DNA of 24,961 bases from a virus, in the IMG/VR virus record IMGVR_UViG_3300044631_002612, positions 1 through 24,961 of that record; one strand, 5' to 3'. The position numbers and the translations under genes were made by a program. Below, in pieces: positions 3,724 to 21,325 of the stretch (the stretch's first letter is position 1; each line of letters opens with the position of its first letter). Below the pieces are notes generated by a model, which saw only the letters and a list, made by a program, of their open reading frames with translations, was not told the DNA's origin and made no database searches.

Positions 3724-6700
3724 TTAGCCGCCTCGGCCATAGCCAACCGCATTCCAGTTGAAGTTACGGCTAACGGCAGTCCCAGCCGAGTTTTTAAAGG
3801 TGACGGTAAAGCCGGTGCCGCTGACGCTGGTGACTTCAAAGAAATCGCCGGTTGCCATGTTTTGAGCGGTGATGCCGATGCTGGGAAGGTAGGCGTTAAC
3901 CCCACCGAGGCTTGTTGTTCCAGTCCAGAAGGCGTTGGTAAAGGTGATTGCCTTGGCGCCGGCTCCGCTGCTGACCGCTCCATCGCTGTTTTCCGTGCGG
4001 CGCTGAAAGGTGGCGTCGTAGCCCAGTTCGTCCACCAAGATGTTTTGGTCGATGGCGCTGCTGCTGAGATCGGCGCGGAATTGGAAGCCGCGACCACGGA
4101 AGGCGCCGTTGACGAATTCCTGGTATGCGGTCCAAGTTGGTGTGGCGCTGGGATTATCATTGGTGGAGCGCAACATCAGCTTGGCGTTCACCTTGTCCGT
4201 AATGGCGCCGTCCCAGTCGGACCAATCATCCACGGTGTTGGCGCGGGAGTCGATCAGGTCGGATGGGTAATAACCACGGGTGACGAAATACCGGCGAAGA
4301 TCCACAGAAAAGATGTTGCCCAGATCCAATGTGCTGGCGAATGTGTAAGTGCCAGAGCTAGCCACGGGTCCAAGTACATCCAGCGTTGGGATCAGGTCAA
4401 AATCAACAACCGAATCAATTAAGGTCGTGCCATCCAGCGTGAGCGCGTCGAACTCTTCGCTGTAGAAGGTGTCTGACTTTGTGCCTTGGAAAGACGGAAC
4501 GTCCTGATCTTCGCGGCGGGTTTGAATTGTTAGCGGCGCGATAGTGTCGGGCAGGTCGATGATTACGCTGGTTTCGCTGGCTGATTGCCGCCCACCGTCA
4601 TCTTCAAATTTCACCAGCACTTCGCCTTCTACAAGCGGAATGATTGCCTCTGTTGAGCTACCGGATTTGGCGGGAATTAGGTCAACGCTGTTGCTCCAAG
4701 TGCCGGTGCCATCGGTCAGGTTGGTGTGGCGGATATGGATTTTGCCGCCAACTTTTACGTCAAGGTCAACGGTTTCGGTCCAGCGAAGACGACCAGAGTT
4801 ATTGTTGATTGCCTCAAAGGTAAGGTTTAGAACATTGCCCGGAACGGCGGTTTTGCCGATGAGGTCGAACTGCGCGGTAGAAACATCGCTGGTTTTATTG
4901 AGATAGTTAATCGCGGTAATTTGGATGTAAAGCGTCCCTTTGCGTGTGCTGCGAATTTGCAGCGATGGCGAGGTGGTGTTTGCTTGGCTCCAGTTGTCGT
5001 TGTCGATCCGGTATTTGACGCGGAATTCGTTGACACGCTGTTTGGGGCTGGTCCAGCTCAGGTCAAAACCGGAAAAGACGCTTTGGCCGTCTTGGTATAG
5101 GTATTCGGTGCCATCAATGTTGGTTGGGGCATCAGGTTTGGCGGACAGGTTTGTAATGTCGCGCTCGGTAAGGGTGACGTCCGATTCGATGGCGTCGTAA
5201 ATGGAACTGTTGTATTCCAGTGCGGTTACACCGATTACTCCGTCTTCGCCTTCGGCAACACTCAGAACGCGATATTGCTGAGCTTCGATGTCGCTGGTTT
5301 GGATCAACCAAATGGCGTTGGCGTTGGGTGCTTCGCTAAATGCGCTGCTGACGTTGATCGTTGTGCCAGAGATGCTGCTGATGGTTTTGGTTTCCACCAA
5401 ACCAGTTGGCATCAGAACCGAAATTGTTGGGCTATTTGACAGGTTGACGGTGAGGTTGGTGCTGCTATCAACGGTGATGGCGGTTGTGGTGGCAGAACTG
5501 ACGCGGCCACTGCGGCGTGTTCCAGCTTTAAGCGGATCGGCAATGTCGATCACCATGCCGGGTCGTAGGATGATTCCGCTGTCAATGGAGACCGAGAAGG
5601 TGACGGTTTCGGTCAGGTTTTGTTCGCTCAACAGTGCCCATTTACCGGCGCGGTGGGCCTGACCTTGGCTGTAACAACCCAGCGCCTTAATGTCTTTGTT
5701 GATGATGCCGTATTTGGAAACGGCGTCTGCATCTTCAACGTATTCGTATTCAACTTCGCCCAGCGTGTCGTAGGACTGCCAAGCAACAGTTGCGGTGGTA
5801 TGGCGAGCTTTTTGTGATGTGCCGCTGTAGAGAAATAGCCCGTCGATGACGTTACTTGGTCCCAGCAGATATTGAGAATCGCCGGGTTTGTCTTGCTGCA
5901 GCACCAGCGAACCAGCGCCGTAGTACGCGATACCACGGAACAAACTGGTCATCTCTTGAATAACGTTATAAACCTCGTCGCGGCTGTTAATCAGCAGGTT
6001 GCAGGAGAAACGCGGCTCCAGTCCGCCTTTGCCGTTGCTGACCAGCGTGTTGCAGTATTGGCTGATTGCGTAAAAGTCGTATTTATCCAGGCTGCTGGCG
6101 GGGATGCTGGCGCCGTAGCGCGTGTTGGTCAACAGGTCATATAGGCACCAGGCGGGGTCGTTGCACCACGTAGCAGCACCAAAAGTGCCGTCCCAAACGC
6201 CGGCGTAAGTTACGCGCCCCGGATATGTAGTTGTATCTACGGTTGCGTTTGACGGCAAAGAAATTTTGATGCCTCGGATTAAATATTTACGGGTTGGAAT
6301 TGAATCAAACTGGCGCGAATCAAAACGAAGGTACGTAAGTGCGCTATTGGGATACCTGAGTTTTTCGTCGATAATTTCGGTATAGCTGAACCAGTAGGTT
6401 AGGTTTTGGCGGCGTGTTGTTATTTCGTCGTCGCTGACGCGAACAACTTTGATGTCAACGGGAAATGCTCCAGAAAGCGAGAGCATGTAATCCCGCTGGT
6501 AAGGATTGCTGGTTTTACCGCTGATAGTGTCAGTTACAACTGTTGTGTATCCACCGGAGTTGTACTGGACTTGGATTTCAATCTGAACGCTGTGGCCGAT
6601 GATGTCGCCGTTGTCTTGGAAGATTTGTAGAGCGGGTATTTGCAACGTTACGCGCACACGATCCACGTCGGAATCGGTGATAGTGCGGACAACTGGAGTG

Positions 6701-7491
6701 TCTTTGAAAACTTCAACGTTTACGCCCTTTTCGCTTTCAGTGCCAATCTGCTGGCTTATGTAACTCTGGGCTTGTGTACCGTTACGGGTTTCAATAGTGA
6801 AGCCAGAAAAATTGTTGTTTCCAGCATCATCTTCCAGTTGAGTACCAGCCAGATAGACGCCTTTGTTGCCGTTTTCGATGCCTTGAATTTCCCCTTCGGA
6901 CAGCAGATCCAGCACGCTGCCGTATTGGACGGACTGGAGTGAGTCGTCGGCTTCTGTTGGCGTGCGACTTCCACCGCCTCCGCCACCGCCACCTTTGCTG
7001 CCGCCACCTCCTCCACCGCCGCCACCAGAACCAGCAATGCCGAGCCCGAGGCCGGCGTTGTGTACGCGGATTCCACCGGCAATGAATGTGTGGTGGCCTT
7101 CGACGGTCAGGTTGTAAACCGTGCCAGTGCAGAATTCGGTTTTGCCAACGATGGGGCGAAGATGACCGTTGTGGTCAACGAGGCAGTCGTCAGAACCGAG
7201 CGTGTCAACTTCGACAAAGGCGTTGAACTGGTTGAGCACCCAGTGGTTCGGGGTGGCATCAAGATGCTGTCCGCCCCAGAGCGTGTAGCGGATGACGCGC
7301 TCGCCTTCGTGCTCGTGGACCTTGAGGACTTTGGCTTCGTGGATTTTGCCGGCGTCGTCAAAACTCCAGACAAGATCGCCTGGCTGCAGTTCATCAATGC
7401 GGCGATTGCCTGCAGGTGTGGCAACAGGTGTGTGCCCTAAAAAGCAGCCACCACCGCCACCGCCGCCACCAGCACCAACAATTCGTGTCAT
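3724..7491 (-). CDS. tail tip / host specificity protein (lambda J-like) with an N-terminal Hint insertion
   Basis: A 1,255-residue protein, close in size to lambda J (about 1,130) plus an insertion. From residue 177 (TPTEADDSLQS) it follows J: LSEGEIQGIENG, later WFSYTEIIDEKLRYPN, YAGVWDGTFG, AWCLYDLLTNTRYG and AISQYCNTLVSNGKGGLEPR. These match 'YSGIWDGTF', 'AWCLWDMLTHPRYGM' and 'GTEPRITCNAYL' in J. Fibronectin-III-like segments lie at about 800-990, and a beta-rich C-terminal part at about 1000-1255 probably contacts the receptor or fibre. Residues 6-15 and 156-174 are poly-glycine, and between them sits a 130-residue Hint domain (separate entry). The start ATG overlaps the I-gene stop (ATGA). 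J forms the trimeric tip that contacts the host surface and lets DNA out. The family assignment is firm; the insertion is the odd part. Confidence 0.95.
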   Translation of the reverse strand: MTRIVGAGGGGGGGGCFLGHTPVATPAGNRRIDELQPGDLVWSFDDAGKIHEAKVLKVHEHEGERVIRYTLWGGQHLDATPNHWVLNQFNAFVEVDTLGSDDCLVDHNGHLRPIVGKTEFCTGTVYNLTVEGHHTFIAGGIRVHNAGLGLGIAGSGGGGGGGGGSKGGGGGGGGSRTPTEADDSLQSVQYGSVLDLLSEGEIQGIENGNKGVYLAGTQLEDDAGNNNFSGFTIETRNGTQAQSYISQQIGTESEKGVNVEVFKDTPVVRTITDSDVDRVRVTLQIPALQIFQDNGDIIGHSVQIEIQVQYNSGGYTTVVTDTISGKTSNPYQRDYMLSLSGAFPVDIKVVRVSDDEITTRRQNLTYWFSYTEIIDEKLRYPNSALTYLRFDSRQFDSIPTRKYLIRGIKISLPSNATVDTTTYPGRVTYAGVWDGTFGAATWCNDPAWCLYDLLTNTRYGASIPASSLDKYDFYAISQYCNTLVSNGKGGLEPRFSCNLLINSRDEVYNVIQEMTSLFRGIAYYGAGSLVLQQDKPGDSQYLLGPSNVIDGLFLYSGTSQKARHTTATVAWQSYDTLGEVEYEYVEDADAVSKYGIINKDIKALGCYSQGQAHRAGKWALLSEQNLTETVTFSVSIDSGIILRPGMVIDIADPLKAGTRRSGRVSSATTTAITVDSSTNLTVNLSNSPTISVLMPTGLVETKTISSISGTTINVSSAFSEAPNANAIWLIQTSDIEAQQYRVLSVAEGEDGVIGVTALEYNSSIYDAIESDVTLTERDITNLSAKPDAPTNIDGTEYLYQDGQSVFSGFDLSWTSPKQRVNEFRVKYRIDNDNWSQANTTSPSLQIRSTRKGTLYIQITAINYLNKTSDVSTAQFDLIGKTAVPGNVLNLTFEAINNNSGRLRWTETVDLDVKVGGKIHIRHTNLTDGTGTWSNSVDLIPAKSGSSTEAIIPLVEGEVLVKFEDDGGRQSASETSVIIDLPDTIAPLTIQTRREDQDVPSFQGTKSDTFYSEEFDALTLDGTTLIDSVVDFDLIPTLDVLGPVASSGTYTFASTLDLGNIFSVDLRRYFVTRGYYPSDLIDSRANTVDDWSDWDGAITDKVNAKLMLRSTNDNPSATPTWTAYQEFVNGAFRGRGFQFRADLSSSAIDQNILVDELGYDATFQRRTENSDGAVSSGAGAKAITFTNAFWTGTTSLGGVNAYLPSIGITAQNMATGDFFEVTSVSGTGFTVTFKNSAGTAVSRNFNWNAVGYGRGG
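7057..7446 (-). other. Hint domain (mini-intein or BIL-type) inside the J gene
   Basis: Residues 16-145 of J. They begin at Cys16 (CFLGHTPVATPAG), followed by IDELQPGDLVWSFDD, which is splicing block A. Block B is present as ATPNHWVL, with the TxxH catalytic His. The end is VYNLTVEGHHTFIAGGIRVHN, block F with the penultimate His and terminal Asn. At 130 residues there is no room for a homing endonuclease. The residue after the Asn is Ala146, not the Cys/Ser/Thr needed by ordinary inteins, as seen in A-type bacterial intein-like (BIL) domains. All residues needed for N-terminal thioester formation and Asn cyclisation look intact, so cleavage or non-canonical splicing is possible. Poly-Gly lies on both sides. 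Confidence 0.9.
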
Positions 7492-9785: not shown

Positions 9786-10126
9786 CAGGGTTCAAATACT
9801 TGCTGGAAGGTGGCCGTTATGGTGGCGCGGTTTTTGTAGGGGACGGATTTGTTCCACTCGGGACAAATCCACTTGTAGGAGGTGGCTTCGTCGAGGGGGG
9901 TCCAGTCGAAGCTGGCGTTGTCGGCGGCGCGGTTGTTGAGGAAGGTCTCGATTGTGTCGGCGTCGGTTTCGGAAACTTCCCAGGTCAAGCTCCAGATCTT
10001 GGGGTTTTGGTTGAGGCCGTAGGTCAGGCGAGCTTGGTAGCCGTCGCCGAATTGGACCGTGCGGACATTGGGGCGGCTGCTTTTCTGGGCGCCGTAGGTT
10101 GGGGTGATGGCGGGGAAGGTGGCCAT
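9785..10126 (-). CDS. minor tail protein (lambda M-like)
   Basis: A 113-residue protein of the lambda gpM family, normally about 109 residues. It begins with FPAITPTYGAQKSSRPNVRT and has GDGYQARLTYGLN, WSLTWEVSETDADTIETFL and a C-terminal YKNRATITATFQQVFEP, all typical of the family. It forms the ring between the tail tube and the tip complex, and sits between tape measure and L as in lambda. Its start overlaps the tape measure stop (TAATG) and its stop overlaps the L start (TGATG). Confidence 0.92.
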   Translation of the reverse strand: MATFPAITPTYGAQKSSRPNVRTVQFGDGYQARLTYGLNQNPKIWSLTWEVSETDADTIETFLNNRAADNASFDWTPLDEATSYKWICPEWNKSVPYKNRATITATFQQVFEP

Positions 10127-12801
10127 TAGGCGAGCAAGCCTCCGGGACGTTTTTGTTTGATGAGTTCTTGCTGGACCGCGATGCCGATGGCTTTGCCAAG
10201 TTGATTGGCTTGGCCGGGATCGCCTCCCACACTAGAGCCGCCGGCATCGACGTTCACGACAATGTTTGCACCACCCATGCCCATCGCATCGTTGGGGTAG
10301 ATGCTGCCGCTGGTGCGCGGCATGAACAGTTCCGGGCCGCGCTCGCCGACGATGTAAGGGGTTCCAGCAGAGACAGGGCCGCCAGCGGCTCTGAATTGGA
10401 ATGGACCAGCGCCACTGAAAATACCCCCGCCTGCCACTGCGTTCGGTGCTCCGGAGCCATACAGTGCGCTCACACTGCCTCCGCCTGCACCAGGGATACC
10501 TGCGAAAGTACGGGCTATACCAATCGCGATGTACTGAGTAATAAGTTGTTTAGCGGTGTCAAATAGGATGTTTGCTATACTTTGCATAAAGTTTGCAAAA
10601 GCTTCTTCTGCTGTACGAGTGCTCTGAGCAACGGCCATAAAACCTTCAAAAATACTGTCTGTAACTGGACGAGTAAACGATAAAGTTGTATTGAAATGTT
10701 CTTGTGCCAGTGCAGCTTTGTTTACTTGTGTTTGGTACAAAACATATTCATCTTTAAGTTTTATGAGATTATTAACATCTGCCTGGGTAGCCATACCTCG
10801 TTCGACGTCAAGTTTACGAAGTTCTATCTCACGCTGGCGTCGGCCCATTTCGGAACGCATTTCCATTCCTTGCGTCTGCTGCATAAGAGATACATTTCCA
10901 AAAGGACCCATAAATGCTGGATCTGTAGCTGCTTTTAATCGAAATAGTTGCAACTGAAATGATTCTCGCTGTTCTTTTACAGCACCTCGACGTAAAATTG
11001 CGTTCTGGTCTTCTTGTAGGTTTAACTGCCGCTGACGTTCGTTAGTGATAGCTACTTGTAAATCGTAAGTATCTTTTAACTGATTAAGTTCTATACCGTG
11101 TACACGAGCAAGATCAGAGCGTACCTGTTGTTCGCGCACACCTACTAGATTCTGTTTTAAGCGCACGTCAAGAAGCTGCTTTTGTAAAGCATAGAGTCTA
11201 CTGTTTTCTTCTCGTTGTATACTTATACGCTCGATCTCTGTTTTACCAAGCTGTAAAACCTGAGATTGTGCATTTGTTCGTTTAATTTGAAAATTAAGTG
11301 CTGCATCTTGCACACGTAAATTACTGCTTGCTAATTCTTTATTTATATTCAGTTGTCTATCTCTTCGCTCCAGGTCGAGCTGCCGTATTTTTGCTTCGTA
11401 CTGCAGTTGAGCTTTATTTCTTTCATCGTTATATCTAGCTATATCCTGATCGACATTAAGTTTTTCACGCGCATCAGTAATCGCCTTGTCCCTTTCTTGT
11501 ACAGCAATCCGCTTTTGCAATGTCTGGTAGCGATCAAACTCTCGCTCACTACTTACTCCGGCTGCTTCTGCCTGTAGGCGTGTAATGCTTAGATCTTGTT
11601 GGCGTGCTCTGGCTGCAGCTTGAACTTGTCCAGTAACATCGGCACCTGGTTGGGTACGAGGTCCAGCGCCAAAAAATAAATTACCAAAAAATGTGGATAA
11701 TTTAGCTAGCTCAACAAGTCCCACGAGACTGAGTTCTTTTAGTTTATTTTGTAGTTTTTCTGAAGCCAGGCCAAACCGCTCCAGAGCAACAACACCTTCT
11801 GTGCCAACTACTTTGGATAGTTGTGCTTTGGTAAGAGCAGCAGCTTTAGCTGTTTGACCCGCTTGCTGAAGATTATTTATAGTCTTTTTAAGTTCGGGAT
11901 CTAAAGAACCGAGGGTTTCTTCTAAATAGCCGACCGCATTACCATTTTCACGTAAAGCTTTTACAAAGGAACGCGCAGATTCAGTTGCAATATCTAGTTG
12001 CTGGCCGATAGCAGAAAGACCGATCTGGAAGGCAAACCCGCCAGCACCTCCACCGACTAGCGCACCGGCTGCTCCACCCAAAACAGCGCCTGGTCCACCG
12101 CCAAAAAGCAATGGGAAGCCCGCACCAAGCAGAAGATCTTCTTGTACTTGCTGGGCTGCTTGCCTTTTTTGTTGTGCAGCCCGAAGACGATCATCGAACT
12201 GCCGCAACTGTTGCCGATGTGTTGCATCGTTTAACTGCTGTTCTCGTTTAGCTTCTTTTTCTAAATTATCTAAACGTTTTTCATGCTCAATTTGATCTAA
12301 TTTAGCTTGCTTAAGTGCAGACTGTTCATTTAATTTAACTTCCAGCTCTGCAACTCTGCGACGAGCTTCAAATTCCGCTTGAGCCCCATTATCAATAGCA
12401 TCCTGAATATCTTGGGCCCGTCTGTTAAGTTCCTCATTACTGGGTCCACGCGCTGACATGCTTTCCAAGCGCTGGCGCTCTTCTAAAAGTCGTAAAGACT
12501 CTTGTATTTCTTTTTTACCCTGTGCCTGGGCTTCTAGAGTTTGCCTTGCGCTGTTACTTTGAATCTGCGCCTGTTCCCTGAGTACACCCGCTATCTCTTT
12601 AAGGATAGTGAGACGCTGCCTATCACTTTCGGTTACCTGACGTGCACCTGCGGCATCATAGGGATTTGTCTGTTTAATATTTGCATAAGCTTTTTGCAGT
12701 TCTTCTACCTTTCCAAGAGTATTTCCAAGTACGCGATCAAACTCGCGTAGCTTTTCTACACCTTTTAGTGCTACTTCAATGTCTACGCCGTAATTGGCCA
12801 C
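10126..12801 (-). CDS. tail tape measure protein
   Basis: An 891-residue protein. Residues about 40-215 are a Gln/Glu/Arg-rich coiled coil. Residues 220-275 form a Gly/Ala-rich hydrophobic stretch (LLLGAGFPLLFGGGPGAVLG, GGGAGGFAF) expected to cross the host membrane. Residues 390-700 are again helical and charged. The end (about 765-891) is the lambda tape-measure C-terminal domain, with AAGGPVSAGTPYIVGERGPE and MPRTSGSIYPNDA. The protein sets tail length and leaves with the DNA. At about 1.5 angstrom per residue it predicts a tail near 130 nm. The start is GTG at 12801. The gene from about 10530 to its start is clearly more AT-rich than its neighbours, while its last ~130 codons are GC-rich. 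Confidence 0.93.
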   Translation of the reverse strand: MANYGVDIEVALKGVEKLREFDRVLGNTLGKVEELQKAYANIKQTNPYDAAGARQVTESDRQRLTILKEIAGVLREQAQIQSNSARQTLEAQAQGKKEIQESLRLLEERQRLESMSARGPSNEELNRRAQDIQDAIDNGAQAEFEARRRVAELEVKLNEQSALKQAKLDQIEHEKRLDNLEKEAKREQQLNDATHRQQLRQFDDRLRAAQQKRQAAQQVQEDLLLGAGFPLLFGGGPGAVLGGAAGALVGGGAGGFAFQIGLSAIGQQLDIATESARSFVKALRENGNAVGYLEETLGSLDPELKKTINNLQQAGQTAKAAALTKAQLSKVVGTEGVVALERFGLASEKLQNKLKELSLVGLVELAKLSTFFGNLFFGAGPRTQPGADVTGQVQAAARARQQDLSITRLQAEAAGVSSEREFDRYQTLQKRIAVQERDKAITDAREKLNVDQDIARYNDERNKAQLQYEAKIRQLDLERRDRQLNINKELASSNLRVQDAALNFQIKRTNAQSQVLQLGKTEIERISIQREENSRLYALQKQLLDVRLKQNLVGVREQQVRSDLARVHGIELNQLKDTYDLQVAITNERQRQLNLQEDQNAILRRGAVKEQRESFQLQLFRLKAATDPAFMGPFGNVSLMQQTQGMEMRSEMGRRQREIELRKLDVERGMATQADVNNLIKLKDEYVLYQTQVNKAALAQEHFNTTLSFTRPVTDSIFEGFMAVAQSTRTAEEAFANFMQSIANILFDTAKQLITQYIAIGIARTFAGIPGAGGGSVSALYGSGAPNAVAGGGIFSGAGPFQFRAAGGPVSAGTPYIVGERGPELFMPRTSGSIYPNDAMGMGGANIVVNVDAGGSSVGGDPGQANQLGKAIGIAVQQELIKQKRPGGLLA

Positions 12802-12836: not shown

Positions 12837-13025
12837 CTACCGCAACGGTCTGGACCTGTTTTGGCGTTTAGCCTGCTCCAAGGCTTTTTCCTCCTGTTCA
12901 TTCTTTAGTTCGTAAAAAGCTGCCCACCCCAGCATTTCTTCGTGTGTTAGACGAAGACTCAAATCTGCTACTGTACTTCCTAGTTCCTTAGCTAGGAAAA
13001 ATAAGAAGTACCAGTCGCCATCAGC
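12837..13025 (-). CDS. tail assembly chaperone T extension, reached by ribosomal frameshift
   Basis: A 62-codon frame with no start codon of its own at its 5' end. It begins exactly at the end of the G gene and runs to TAG at 12839-12837. It reads ADGDWYFLFFLAKELGSTVA, then DLSLRLTHEEMLGWAAFYEL and KNEQEEKALEQAKRQ. The helix 'T/S-x-x-E-x-x-x-W-x-x-x-Y-x-L' is the hallmark of the T part of gpGT-type chaperones. It lies in the +1 frame relative to G, so a small share of ribosomes would make a G-T fusion of about 178 residues. In lambda the T part brings tube subunits to the chaperone-coated tape measure. Base composition is AT-rich like the tape measure, unlike G. Confidence 0.87.
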   Translation of the reverse strand, partial: ADGDWYFLFFLAKELGSTVADLSLRLTHEEMLGWAAFYELKNEQEEKALEQAKRQNRSRPLR

Positions 13026-13032
13026 TTTTTAG
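13021..13032 (-). promoter_or_regulatory. programmed frameshift site at the G/T junction
   Basis: The coding strand reads CTA AAA AGC TGA in the G frame. The T frame is entered as AAA GCT GAT, one base forward. The +1 frame upstream is blocked by TAA overlapping CTA, so the shift must fall in the A-run. A tRNA-Lys on AAA can move one base to an identical AAA within the five A. A -2 shift gives the same frame but would leave the P-site tRNA on TAA, which pairs poorly. The G stop follows at once. Confidence 0.72.
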
Positions 13033-13371
13033 GGCGGCTTTCGCTTCCTCCACCTTGGTTTCGGAGCCGGAGGTCAGCATTGCCAGTTGGATTTCTTGGA
13101 GGATGCTGGCTTCGACTTCGCGGCGGAGGGCGGCGCGGTCGCCGTCTTGGAACAGGCGCTTGCCGTCCTTGTCGAGGGCTTTCTCGATCATCAGACTCAG
13201 CGCGAAGTCACCAGCATCATCAGTGCCAGACTTTTTCTGGATGGACTCGCGCTCGGCGATGGTCAGGGGGTGCCAGTAGATCTCCAGCAGGGTCTCGTCG
13301 CCGGACTTGACTTCGTGCTTGTAAAGCTGGCTGACTCCGAATTTGTTGCGGAGCAGTTCGACGGCTCGCAT
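13021..13371 (-). CDS. tail assembly chaperone (lambda G-like)
   Basis: A 116-residue, mostly helical, charged protein: KSGDETLLEIYWHPLTIAER, FALSLMIEKALDKDGKRLF, then AALRREVEASILQEI and a Lys/Glu-rich end (VEEAKAALKS). Size, charge and position directly before the tape measure fit the G-type chaperone, which coats the tape measure during tube assembly and is not in the virion. Its stop TGA lies 7 bases after a run of five A on the coding strand, where the T frame takes over. The ATG at 13371 is used. Base composition is GC-rich (65% in one 60-base line counted by hand), in contrast to the T part. Confidence 0.87.
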   Translation of the reverse strand: MRAVELLRNKFGVSQLYKHEVKSGDETLLEIYWHPLTIAERESIQKKSGTDDAGDFALSLMIEKALDKDGKRLFQDGDRAALRREVEASILQEIQLAMLTSGSETKVEEAKAALKS

Positions 13372-13400: not shown

Positions 13401-13829
13401 CTAGGCGTTTGCTGTGAATTCGCAAGAGATGATGCCCACAAAGTGCGAGCGGTCCTCAATGTCTAGCGGCGTGGGACCGACGATGTCGCGTACTTTGGGC
13501 TTGCAGGTAAAGGTGTCGGTGTAGCCCGAGGCGTTGACGGAGGTGAGGCCGTCGATCACGGCTTCGCACAGGGAGGAGAGGGTGGACGTCCCAGCGTTCT
13601 TGGGGACGTAGATGTTGCACTGGACGACGCCGCTGTAGAAGTCGGAGGCGGCGCCCATGTTTTGCATGGTGGCTTGGGTGAAGTTCACCGTCATGGCCAC
13701 GTACTTGGTGGTTTTGCTGGGTGTGGTGTAGGGGACGTTGTCGTACACCATGGTCACTGTTGGATCGACGGCAGCGACAGCATCGGTGACGGCTTTTTCA
13801 AATGCAGCGCGGGTGCTTACAAGTGCCAT
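13401..13829 (-). CDS. tail terminator protein (lambda U-like)
   Basis: A 142-residue protein with an N-terminal helix (STRAAFEKAVTDAVAA), a strand region (VTMVYDNVPYTTPSKTTKYV) and beta strands such as YSGVVQCNIYVPKNAGTSTL, ending in VGIISCEFTANA. This is the layout of gpU-like tail terminators, which form a hexameric ring that ends tube growth and joins the head. It lies after the gp10/Z-like gene (3-base gap) and only 29 bases before the chaperone. No tube gene sits between the two, where lambda has V. The assignment rests on fold pattern, size and position. Confidence 0.75.
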   Translation of the reverse strand: MALVSTRAAFEKAVTDAVAAVDPTVTMVYDNVPYTTPSKTTKYVAMTVNFTQATMQNMGAASDFYSGVVQCNIYVPKNAGTSTLSSLCEAVIDGLTSVNASGYTDTFTCKPKVRDIVGPTPLDIEDRSHFVGIISCEFTANA

Positions 13830-17446: not shown

Positions 17447-18409
17447 TTAAATGGTCGCTCCAACGTCATCAACAGTGGCTGGCGAAAGGTTTACCCATGC
17501 GCTCCCGGTGTAGCCCTCAAAGCAGCCGGCTGTGGTGTTAAAACGAATCATTCCGGTGGCGGGTGTGCCGGGGCGCTGGAGTGTTGTTCCAGTAGGCGCC
17601 TGGATGTATTGGTTGGCTGTGTAAAACGAGGTTGCAAGGGAGACGACGCCGTCGGTGACGTTGATGCCAGTTCCGGCGGTGACGGTGGCGTTGGAACCAG
17701 CAGGACCTGTTGCGCCTGTAGCGCCAGTAGGTCCGGTAGCGCCTTGGGGACCAGTGGCGCCGGTTAAACCTTGGGGGCCAGTGTCTCCTGTGTCGCCTTT
17801 GTCTCCCTTGTCGCCTTTGGGGCCGGTGGCGCCTGTTGCTCCAGTTAGGCCGGTTTCGCCTTGGGGACCTGTTGCGCCTTGAGGTCCGGTGGCACCTTGG
17901 GGGCCCTGTTCACCTTGGGGACCTTGTTCGCCTTGAGGTCCTTGAAGACCAGTAGCGCCTTGGGGGCCGGTGGCTCCAGTTGCGCCAGTTGCTCCAGTAG
18001 CGCCTGTGGTGCCGGTGTTGCCACGGGGGATGGTGAAGTTGAAGATTGCGGCGGACTCGGTGCCGACGTTGGTGACCGTGGCGGAAGTTCCGGCGTCGCC
18101 GGTGGTGACGGTGCCGATGGTGATTGATGCTCCACCGCCGCCTTCTTCGGTGCTGAGGTTGCCGTTGATGAGGAGTTCGGAATTACGGCCGGTGCCGCCG
18201 AGGGCTAGTGGGCTGTCGTTCCAGCCGGTGGAGGATTTGGGGCCGTAAAGCTCGGTGGTGCGGGTGTTGATGTACCAGTCGCCGGTGCGGCCTTCGGTGG
18301 TTGGGGGACCGTCGCCGGAAAGCAGGCTCTGGAATTGTTTGACGTCACGCGCCAGCTTGACCAGTGCGGTGACCTGGGCAAGCGTCAGGTATTCCTGCTT
18401 GGTGGCCAT
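17447..18409 (-). CDS. collagen-like fibre protein in the head module
   Basis: A 320-residue protein. Residues 1-60 contain a helical start and [20 protein letters not shown], a unit known from collagen-like and fibre proteins of phages. Residues 60-129 are beta-rich and end FNFTIPR. Residues 130-240 are about 37 uninterrupted Gly-x-y triplets ([12 protein letters not shown]), expected to fold as a collagen triple helix. The last 80 residues ([20 protein letters not shown]) look like the small C-terminal trimerisation unit of phage fibres. It is encoded between portal and scaffold, 3 bases after the portal stop, so it may be a capsid or neck fibre rather than a tail fibre. Location on the virion is inferred. 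Confidence 0.88.
17690..18022 (-). repeat. collagen Gly-x-y coding repeat
   Basis: About 37 consecutive Gly-x-y codon triplets in the collagen-like gene. The commonest are GAT and GPQ, with a charged block [16 protein letters not shown] near the middle. The 9-bp units vary in the third base, so they are not recent perfect copies. Confidence 0.9.
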
Positions 18410-20434: not shown

Positions 20435-20851
20435 TTAGATGGAGGCGGTGATGGCGCCGCTGGTGATGAAGTTGCAGGTGATCACTTCGAGTTCGCCCAC
20501 CGTGGCGCTGAAGTCGGCGCTGGTGATGATGCCCGAGAAAGCGATCTTTTTGCCGCCGCTGGTGTCTAGGAACAGTTCGAAGGCAGCGTTGGCGCTATCT
20601 TCGGTGGTAAGGACGTCTTGCAGGAAGGCGGCGGTTTCGTCAGCGCTGGAGGCCGTGTACATCAGCTCGACGGTGCCGGAGCCGGAGATGAGGCCGCCCA
20701 CGAATTCGCGGCTGGTGGAGCCGTGGTCAGTGGTGTCGAGCGTGTCCTTGTTGATGGTCAGGGACCAGCTGCGGGTCGAGGTGATTGCAGCAGGGGTGGA
20801 ACCGTCGTTTTCGAATTTGACGGAGCCCTCTTCGCCACGAAAAAAGGCCAT
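20435..20851 (-). CDS. tail tube-like protein, copy 1
   Basis: A 138-residue protein: MAFFRGEEGSVKFENDGSTP, AITSTRSWSLTINKDTLDTT, then GSTSREFVGG, a beta region and FSGIITSADFSATVGELEVI. The pattern 'S-W-S-L-T-x-x-x-D-x-L-D-T-T-D-x-G-S-x-x-R-E-x-x-x-G' is that of the beta-barrel tail tube proteins of TP901-1-like phages, whose hexameric rings stack to form the tube. The ATG at 20851 is directly preceded by a 7-bp hairpin that would cover the ribosome landing site. It is about 72% identical to the next gene over the full length (hand count). Location upstream of the portal is unusual. Confidence 0.84.
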   Translation of the reverse strand: MAFFRGEEGSVKFENDGSTPAAITSTRSWSLTINKDTLDTTDHGSTSREFVGGLISGSGTVELMYTASSADETAAFLQDVLTTEDSANAAFELFLDTSGGKKIAFSGIITSADFSATVGELEVITCNFITSGAITASI

Positions 20852-20908: not shown

Positions 20909-21325
20909 TTAGATAGAGGCGGTGATTGCGCCAGAGCTGATGAAGTTGACGGTGATGACTTCCAGTTCGCCGACGGTTGCGCTGTAATCAGCACTGGTGA
21001 TGATGCCGGTGAAAGTGATTTTCTTGGTGCCGGAGGTGTCCAAGAAGAGTTCGAATTGGGCGTCGGTTTGGTCCTTGGTGGTCAGGACGTCGTCGATGAA
21101 GTTGAGGGTTTCGCCCGAGCCGGGGGCGGTGTACATGACTTCGGCGCTGCCGCTTCCAGAGAGGAGGCTGCCAATGAATTCACGGCTGGTCGAACCTTGG
21201 TCGGTTACGTCCAGAGTGTCTTTGTTGATGGTGAAGCTCCAGCTGCGGGTGGACGAGACTGCGGCCACGACGCCGGAGCTGTCTTTGAAGCTGATGGAGC
21301 CCTCCTCGCCGCGAAAGAAAGCCAC
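20909..21325 (-). CDS. tail tube-like protein, copy 2
   Basis: A 138-residue paralogue of the following gene, with the same length and no gaps: MAFFRGEEGSISFKDSSGVV, STRSWSFTINKDTLDVTDQG, EFIGSLLSGSGSAEVMYTAP, and the same C-terminal AITASI. The N-terminal 10 residues and the last 24 are nearly unchanged; differences cluster at residues 11-25 and 67-90, likely exposed loops. The start codon is GTG (21325-21323). Tandem tube genes may give a mixed tube, or one copy may have become a tube-end or decorative protein. Confidence 0.84.
   Translation of the reverse strand: MAFFRGEEGSISFKDSSGVVAAVSSTRSWSFTINKDTLDVTDQGSTSREFIGSLLSGSGSAEVMYTAPGSGETLNFIDDVLTTKDQTDAQFELFLDTSGTKKITFTGIITSADYSATVGELEVITVNFISSGAITASI

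Follow-up and report, generated by a model that had tools for sequence, protein, structure and literature searches.

The analysed stretch (hereafter the window) is 24,961 nt of viral DNA, IMG/VR record IMGVR_UViG_3300044631_002612. Four of its genes, all on the minus strand, follow one another in the order tail terminator, G, T, tape measure, which is the gene order of a lambda-type G/GT pair. The tail terminator gene (13401..13829), 5' of G, matches phrog_179 ('tail terminator', E 3.6e-13) and has a match to the Pfam Phage_tail_terminator_5 slightly below the cut-off. G (13021..13371), the 116-aa tail assembly chaperone, matches phrog_20784 (E 1.1e-22) and phrog_344 ('tail assembly chaperone', E 1.8e-5). 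The T extension (12837..13028) lies in the +1 frame relative to G; its 63 codons, beginning KADGDWYFLFFLAKELG, end at a TAG (12839-12837), and it matches phrog_337 ('tail protein', E 4.1e-5) and phrog_26456. The tape measure protein gene (10126..12801) has a GTG start and matches phrog_1538 ('tail length tape measure protein', E 1.6e-14). These profiles place G in a tail chaperone family and T in a tail protein family; the scores are modest, and those for T are stronger in relatives. Gene order and PHROG matches together bear out the tail chaperone G-T identity that an earlier note had given this pair from the sequence alone. In relatives T has a further match, to phrog_14766 (profile residues 122-164 of 224), and this position is where a match would be expected were G and T one chain in that family. 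A search for a solved-structure match to the G/T pair found none.

Among cultured phages, relatives of G occur in cyanophages and Pelagibacter phages (KBS-S-2A, S-H1, S-2L, MED4-117, P-HS2, HTVC202P, HTVC026P), and a further relative is AG-345-A17, a single-cell marine virus. Within the phage collection the sole +1 member is a single-cell virus. Where cultured relatives are annotated, T is mostly left out, so that G is followed by a gap before the tape measure gene, or it stands unjoined to G; in S-H1 a small ORF of its own lies between these two genes. No relatives were confirmed in 84,980 bacterial and archaeal genomes.

Other genes of the window, again on the minus strand, also drew attention. 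Two tandem major tail protein paralogues (20435-20851 and 20909-21325; 72% identical; phrog_10528) sit between the terminase and portal genes, distant from the tail module. A J-like tail tip protein (3724-7491) contains at residues ~16-147, within a glycine-rich stretch near its N terminus, a Hint/intein-like domain (Intein_splicing 5e-7, PT-HINT 2e-5) whose first residue is Cys and whose end is His-Asn-Ala. A collagen-like Gly-X-Y repeat protein (17447-18409) is encoded between portal and the gene preceding the capsid gene.

At the junction of G and T the minus strand reads ...GCC GCC CTA AAA AGC TGA TGG CGA..., with CTA beginning at 13032, AAA at 13029 and AGC at 13026, and with the zero-frame stop TGA of G (13021..13023) directly after AGC. 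The putative slip site is AAA AGC (13024..13029), where the P-site AAA would re-pair on the AAA one base 3', making GCT the next T codon. The +1 frame is closed upstream by a TAA (13029..13031), which pins the shift to AAA or later; after this stop the frame reads AAA GCT GAT GGC GAC TGG TAC TTC... and is open until the TAG that ends T. The window T has no ATG, GTG or TTG before its conserved core. The -1 frame meets a TAG at 12994, 12 codons past the A run, and no -1 heptamer leads into T, such that the usual XXXYYYZ route of a lambda-type pair is absent. The earlier note had described the T frame opening at the end of G at CTA AAA AGC TGA, the upstream TAA, the stop in the -1 frame and the lack of a -1 heptamer; its frames and coordinates proved correct throughout, and the junction peptide that it predicted, A-L-K-A-D-G-D-W-Y-F, is the right translation for a +1 slip.

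From eight scans of IMG/VR and from cultured phages we collected 456 loci that include a G homologue together with its stop, and located T by profile in either shifted frame; three truncated loci were left unclassified. T lies in the +1 frame at 260 loci, and all 260 have AAA AGN in frame near the end of G (AGC in 253, AGT in 4, AGG in 2 and AGA in 1). T lies in the -1 frame at 193 loci, with a slippery heptamer in 187 (AAAAAAC in 145, AAAAAAA in 20, AAAAAAG in 5, GGGAAAG in 17). The six heptamer-less loci are S-2L-like and MED4-117-like; S-2L (L086) and MED4-117 (L087) themselves, for example, have no recognisable heptamer near the G end. To avoid scoring only the expected motif, we sought both motifs in both classes, at 207 +1 and 150 -1 non-redundant loci. 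Counted over related loci, whose events are not independent, AAA AG was present at 207/207 of the +1 loci versus 0/150 of the -1 loci, and a heptamer at 146/150 of the -1 loci versus 17/207 of the +1 loci. These 17 belong to the A17 sister clade and carry UUUAAAA one codon ahead of the site. At 22/81 loci of the A17 clade GAT TTA AAA stands just 5' of the +1 site, which by letter is the -1 heptamer UUUAAAA; T is still in +1 there.

The invariant part of the +1 site is AAAAG. The run of five A, which the earlier note had stressed, is incidental, the run being A4 in 200/260 of the +1 loci and A5 in 60/260. That note had proposed aligning relatives to see whether A5 and the stop position are kept: A5 is not, and the G stop usually comes directly after AGN, with a range of 0 to 7 codons downstream among the distinct +1 loci. 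A G stop adjoining the slip site is not required. Pinning of the shift by an upstream stop in the +1 frame holds for the window and for 173/215 distinct +1 loci, where that stop overlaps the codon before AAA, and is not universal. At 81/215 distinct loci the T frame is shut just before AAA and the G stop stands right after AGN, leaving only the pair AAA (P site)/AGN (A site) for the shift. The lysine codon of the slip site is AAA in 70/70, 75/75, 61/61 and 9/9 distinct loci of the window, A17, L192 and L204 clades, respectively; among the other Lys codons of G the share of AAG in these clades is 53%, 25%, 47% and ~70%. Full P-site re-pairing one base 3' (XXX X, here AAA A) is available at 260/260 of the +1 loci.

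T is constrained as coding sequence in the +1 frame, with mismatches between relatives distributed over codon positions 1:2:3 as 28904:14163:67272. No start codon precedes the T core in 135/157 distinct loci, and in the remainder none lies at one fixed place. The conserved +1-frame protein, its codon rhythm and its PHROG match make the T frame more than chance. In -1 relatives (KBS-S-2A, S-H1, Pelagibacter phages) a homologous T is reached via A AAA AAC, and this retention of T suggests that the fusion itself is conserved.

We conclude that G and T very probably form a lambda-type tail chaperone pair, joined by a +1 slip of the P-site tRNA-Lys at AAA AGC. Most ribosomes would end at the G stop, producing gpG, and a minority would slip forward one base at AAA|AGC, the peptidyl-tRNA-Lys in the P site shifting from AAA to the overlapping AAA (...CTA AAA A GCT GAT...), to produce gpG-T as the rarer and longer product. 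As in lambda, gpG-T would link the tape measure protein to the subunit of the tail tube. Lambda-type pairs produce a few percent of fusion, on which tail assembly depends. The +1 direction, which the earlier note had also chosen, is favoured because only the AAA-to-AAA slip gives complete re-pairing; it is further in keeping with a T that is in +1 in every close relative and has no start before its core.

A possible objection is that two bases back leads to the same frame as one base forward, such that a -2 shift would also reach T, adding one residue at the junction. G-T shifts of -2 do exist, as in coliphage 9g at CCCUUUUUUU (PMC4276943), and the SD-like block described below lies far upstream, a geometry that would pull the mRNA backward rather than push it forward. 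After a -2 shift, however, the Lys tRNA would meet TAA, TGA, TCA, TTA or CCA, with at least one mismatch, as against a perfect AAA with +1 in every locus, and the preceding codon varies freely (TTA, TTG, CTC, CTA, CTT, CTG, ATC, ATG, TCC). We infer a +1 slip and regard a -2 shift as improbable. Even less probable is that RNA polymerase, rather than the ribosome, slips at the site, losing one A or gaining two, with normal translation then yielding the fusion. The site is indeed an A run, but the long homopolymer expected for such slippage is not found in these stretches of A4 or A5. A run of four A is generally too short for polymerase slippage, which moreover would need neither the flanking G, here invariant, nor the phase of the Lys codon, here kept.

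Coupled re-initiation can make use of SD-like sequences close to gene ends (PMC5009743), and T might accordingly be a separate gene, begun by re-initiation or at an unusual start; alternatively it might be disused. Against this stand the general lack of a start before the conserved core, or of a fixed one elsewhere, the coding constraint in the +1 frame, and the retention of the same junction region in -1 relatives; we consider this reading about as improbable as polymerase slippage. Finally, the window is a single metagenomic contig, and the earlier note had named a sequencing indel as what would overturn its claim. This is excluded by many independent assemblies with the same +1 layout, from many metagenomes and from AG-345-A17, which include loci with an identical G protein yet a very different T; the probability left to an indel is negligible.

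Given the +1 slip at AAA AGN and the -1 heptamers of relatives, the slip direction appears to have switched several times within one homologous G-T family. Our G tree (42 rows, 111 columns, with the last G residues left out) needs four changes between +1 and -1, counted without telling gain from loss, and three of these are forced by supported branches. A single origin of +1, with all +1 rows held together, is rejected (AU p=0.0016; 0.0075 without long outliers). An earlier 39-row tree also needed four changes, and so does a T tree (64 columns), but the latter has few supported forks. The clearest switch is that of the L192 clade (87 loci, mostly ATG AAA AGC), which is nested among KBS-S-2A-like loci that have -1 at GTA/GCA/CCA AAA AAC. 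In the alignment the fusion has K-N-L-K where the shift is -1 and K-A-L-K where it is +1, suggesting that the switch would barely alter the fusion product.

What might stimulate the +1 slip? The window phage uses AGC more than any other Ser codon (29.5 per 1000) and more than GCT, the +1 codon (21.4 per 1000); a rare zero-frame A-site codon is thus not found, by a codon usage that is the phage's own and from which host tRNA levels may differ. Nor is AAA AGC avoided in other genes of the window clade (18 observed vs 22.7 expected). The common AGC and the unavoided AAA AGC suggest that the hexamer by itself probably causes little shifting, and that a further factor must help. No conserved 3' pseudoknot or hairpin was found; consensus folds around the site are weak hairpins with almost no covariation, and mean fold z-scores are about 0.4 to -1.3, except for -2.3 over 100 nt in the window clade. 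Some members of that clade have a hairpin around +45, which is absent from the window itself. The window has no phage tRNA that might steer the shift.

A candidate stimulator lies upstream of the site. The block GTG GAG GAA GCG (13042..13053, minus strand), which contains the SD-like GGAGG (13051-13047; its end is 17 nt 5' of the slip codon), is frozen at the codon level. It occupies codons -8 to -5, and in the window clade its four codons make up 69/69, 70/70, 65/65 and 67/70 of the codons used for the respective residues, with codons -9 and -4 to -1 variable; synonymous diversity in the block is ~0 where 0.5-0.7 is expected (70 distinct relatives). The block is the best anti-SD match in 35/35 non-redundant window-clade loci (mean -9.3 vs -6.5 kcal/mol for synonymous recodings); as no single locus falls beyond the best 5% of its own synonymous null, the SD-like case in this clade is made by the positional agreement of these 35/35 loci and by the frozen codons. 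The A17 sister clade has another purine block (AAGGAGG, AGAGGAG, AAGGGGG, AGGGAGG) ~23 nt upstream in 19/20 loci, which is retained while the residues vary (KE, RG, KG, RE) and averages -9.5 vs -5.8 kcal/mol. Also frozen in the A17 clade, where the region concerned spans codons -10 to -3, is GAG GCT AAA GCC (codons -6 to -3), for which we found no reason. Most genes of the window have no SD-like sequence at their starts, and this holds for G and for the tape measure gene (median anti-SD energy -1.6 kcal/mol).

Of the four +1 clades, L192 and L204 show no enrichment of an SD-like block, and we reject an SD-like stimulator as a common trait of all +1 loci. Known SD stimulators lie 3 nt upstream for +1 and 9-14 nt upstream for -1 (PMC5009743). 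The evidence on the block is suggestive: it may be a stimulator of new geometry, or it may have another role, such as ribosome pausing or retention. In its fullest form our interpretation is tentative, and we hold it to be possible though somewhat doubtful: AAA AGN would be a dedicated +1 signal that was adopted more than once, alternating with the -1 signal A AAA AAC, and in the window clade and its sister the frozen SD-like block 17-23 nt upstream would stimulate the shift from a distance that is neither the 3 nt of +1 nor the 9-14 nt of -1 systems.

The resemblance to the lambda gpG/gpGT tail chaperone frameshift model (PMC5009743) extends to gene order, a two-frame chaperone before the tape measure gene, a start-less T, and the families of G and T. 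The difference is that the window shift would be +1 at AAA AGN with no -1 heptamer into T, whereas most of the -1 relatives do have heptamers. G-T pairs with +1 have been reported before: that of the haloarchaeal myovirus HSTV-2 is described as very likely +1 (PMC5009743). They are also implied for actinobacteriophage tail chaperones, with both -1 and +1 shifts stated for the SEA-PHAGES set (PMC10885494); -2 is on record for 9g (PMC4276943). HSTV-2 shares the direction with the window but is an archaeal virus, and the part of the source that treats it reports neither family-wide conservation nor a change of direction (PMC5009743). The AAA A of our site is the forward 'four' motif of PRFect (PMC10885494), four identical bases read XXX X. 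PRFect further asks that the A-site codon of the +1 frame be used more often than that of the zero frame (PMC10885494); here GCT is rarer than AGC, and the rule as described would therefore miss the window site.

Other +1 shifts likewise involve a P-site tRNA that slips beside the zero-frame end, namely those of Listeria phage and SPP1 structural genes at CCC UGA/CCC UAA and of bacterial prfB at CUU UGA (PMC5009743, PMC6316719). These use a rare Pro codon or an A-site stop, whereas the window site has the common sense codon AGC; prfB in particular combines an A-site stop with an SD 3 nt upstream, and here AGC fills the A site and the SD-like block stands 17-23 nt upstream. The +1 shifts of yeast Ty1 (CUU AGG C) and Ty3 (GCG AGU U) (PMC5009743) share AGN in the A site, but are eukaryotic and work with scarce AGG/AGU tRNAs; we see in them a likeness only, not kinship. 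In the open-access literature that was searched we found no report of AAA AGN as a site, of direction changes within one homologous pair, or of this G-T family.

The slip site is also a boundary of another kind. We compared the window with 17 close relatives (L002-L018). DNA identity is about 90-100% along G up to AAAAGC, and in most relatives also over the preceding 900 nt; past the slip site it drops abruptly in all but L002, and beyond the first ten codons of T most 30-nt windows are down to about 43-77%. At the protein level G is 97-100% identical to those of the relatives, T is 49-62% (about 57%), and the tape measure protein is 29-43% over its N-terminal 250 residues; L002 is the exception, with 90% for T and 94% for the tape measure protein. 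This joint divergence suggests that T and the tape measure gene tend to be swapped jointly, at the slip site. The frozen block could be thought to serve as homology for such recombination, but this is less likely, because the codons between it and the slip site vary. The slip site may thus be an exchange point for T and the tape measure gene between phages, with the recoding signal marking a module boundary.

A homologous gene pair that slips backward in some lineages and forward in others would amount to a large natural experiment in recoding, in which each direction is tied to a particular invariant site and the fusion junction is kept almost unchanged. It makes testable why a family changes its slip direction and how few bases suffice. 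A +1 site whose A-site codon is a common sense codon is unexplained by the usual 'rare codon or stop' account, and tools built on such rules would miss sites of this kind.
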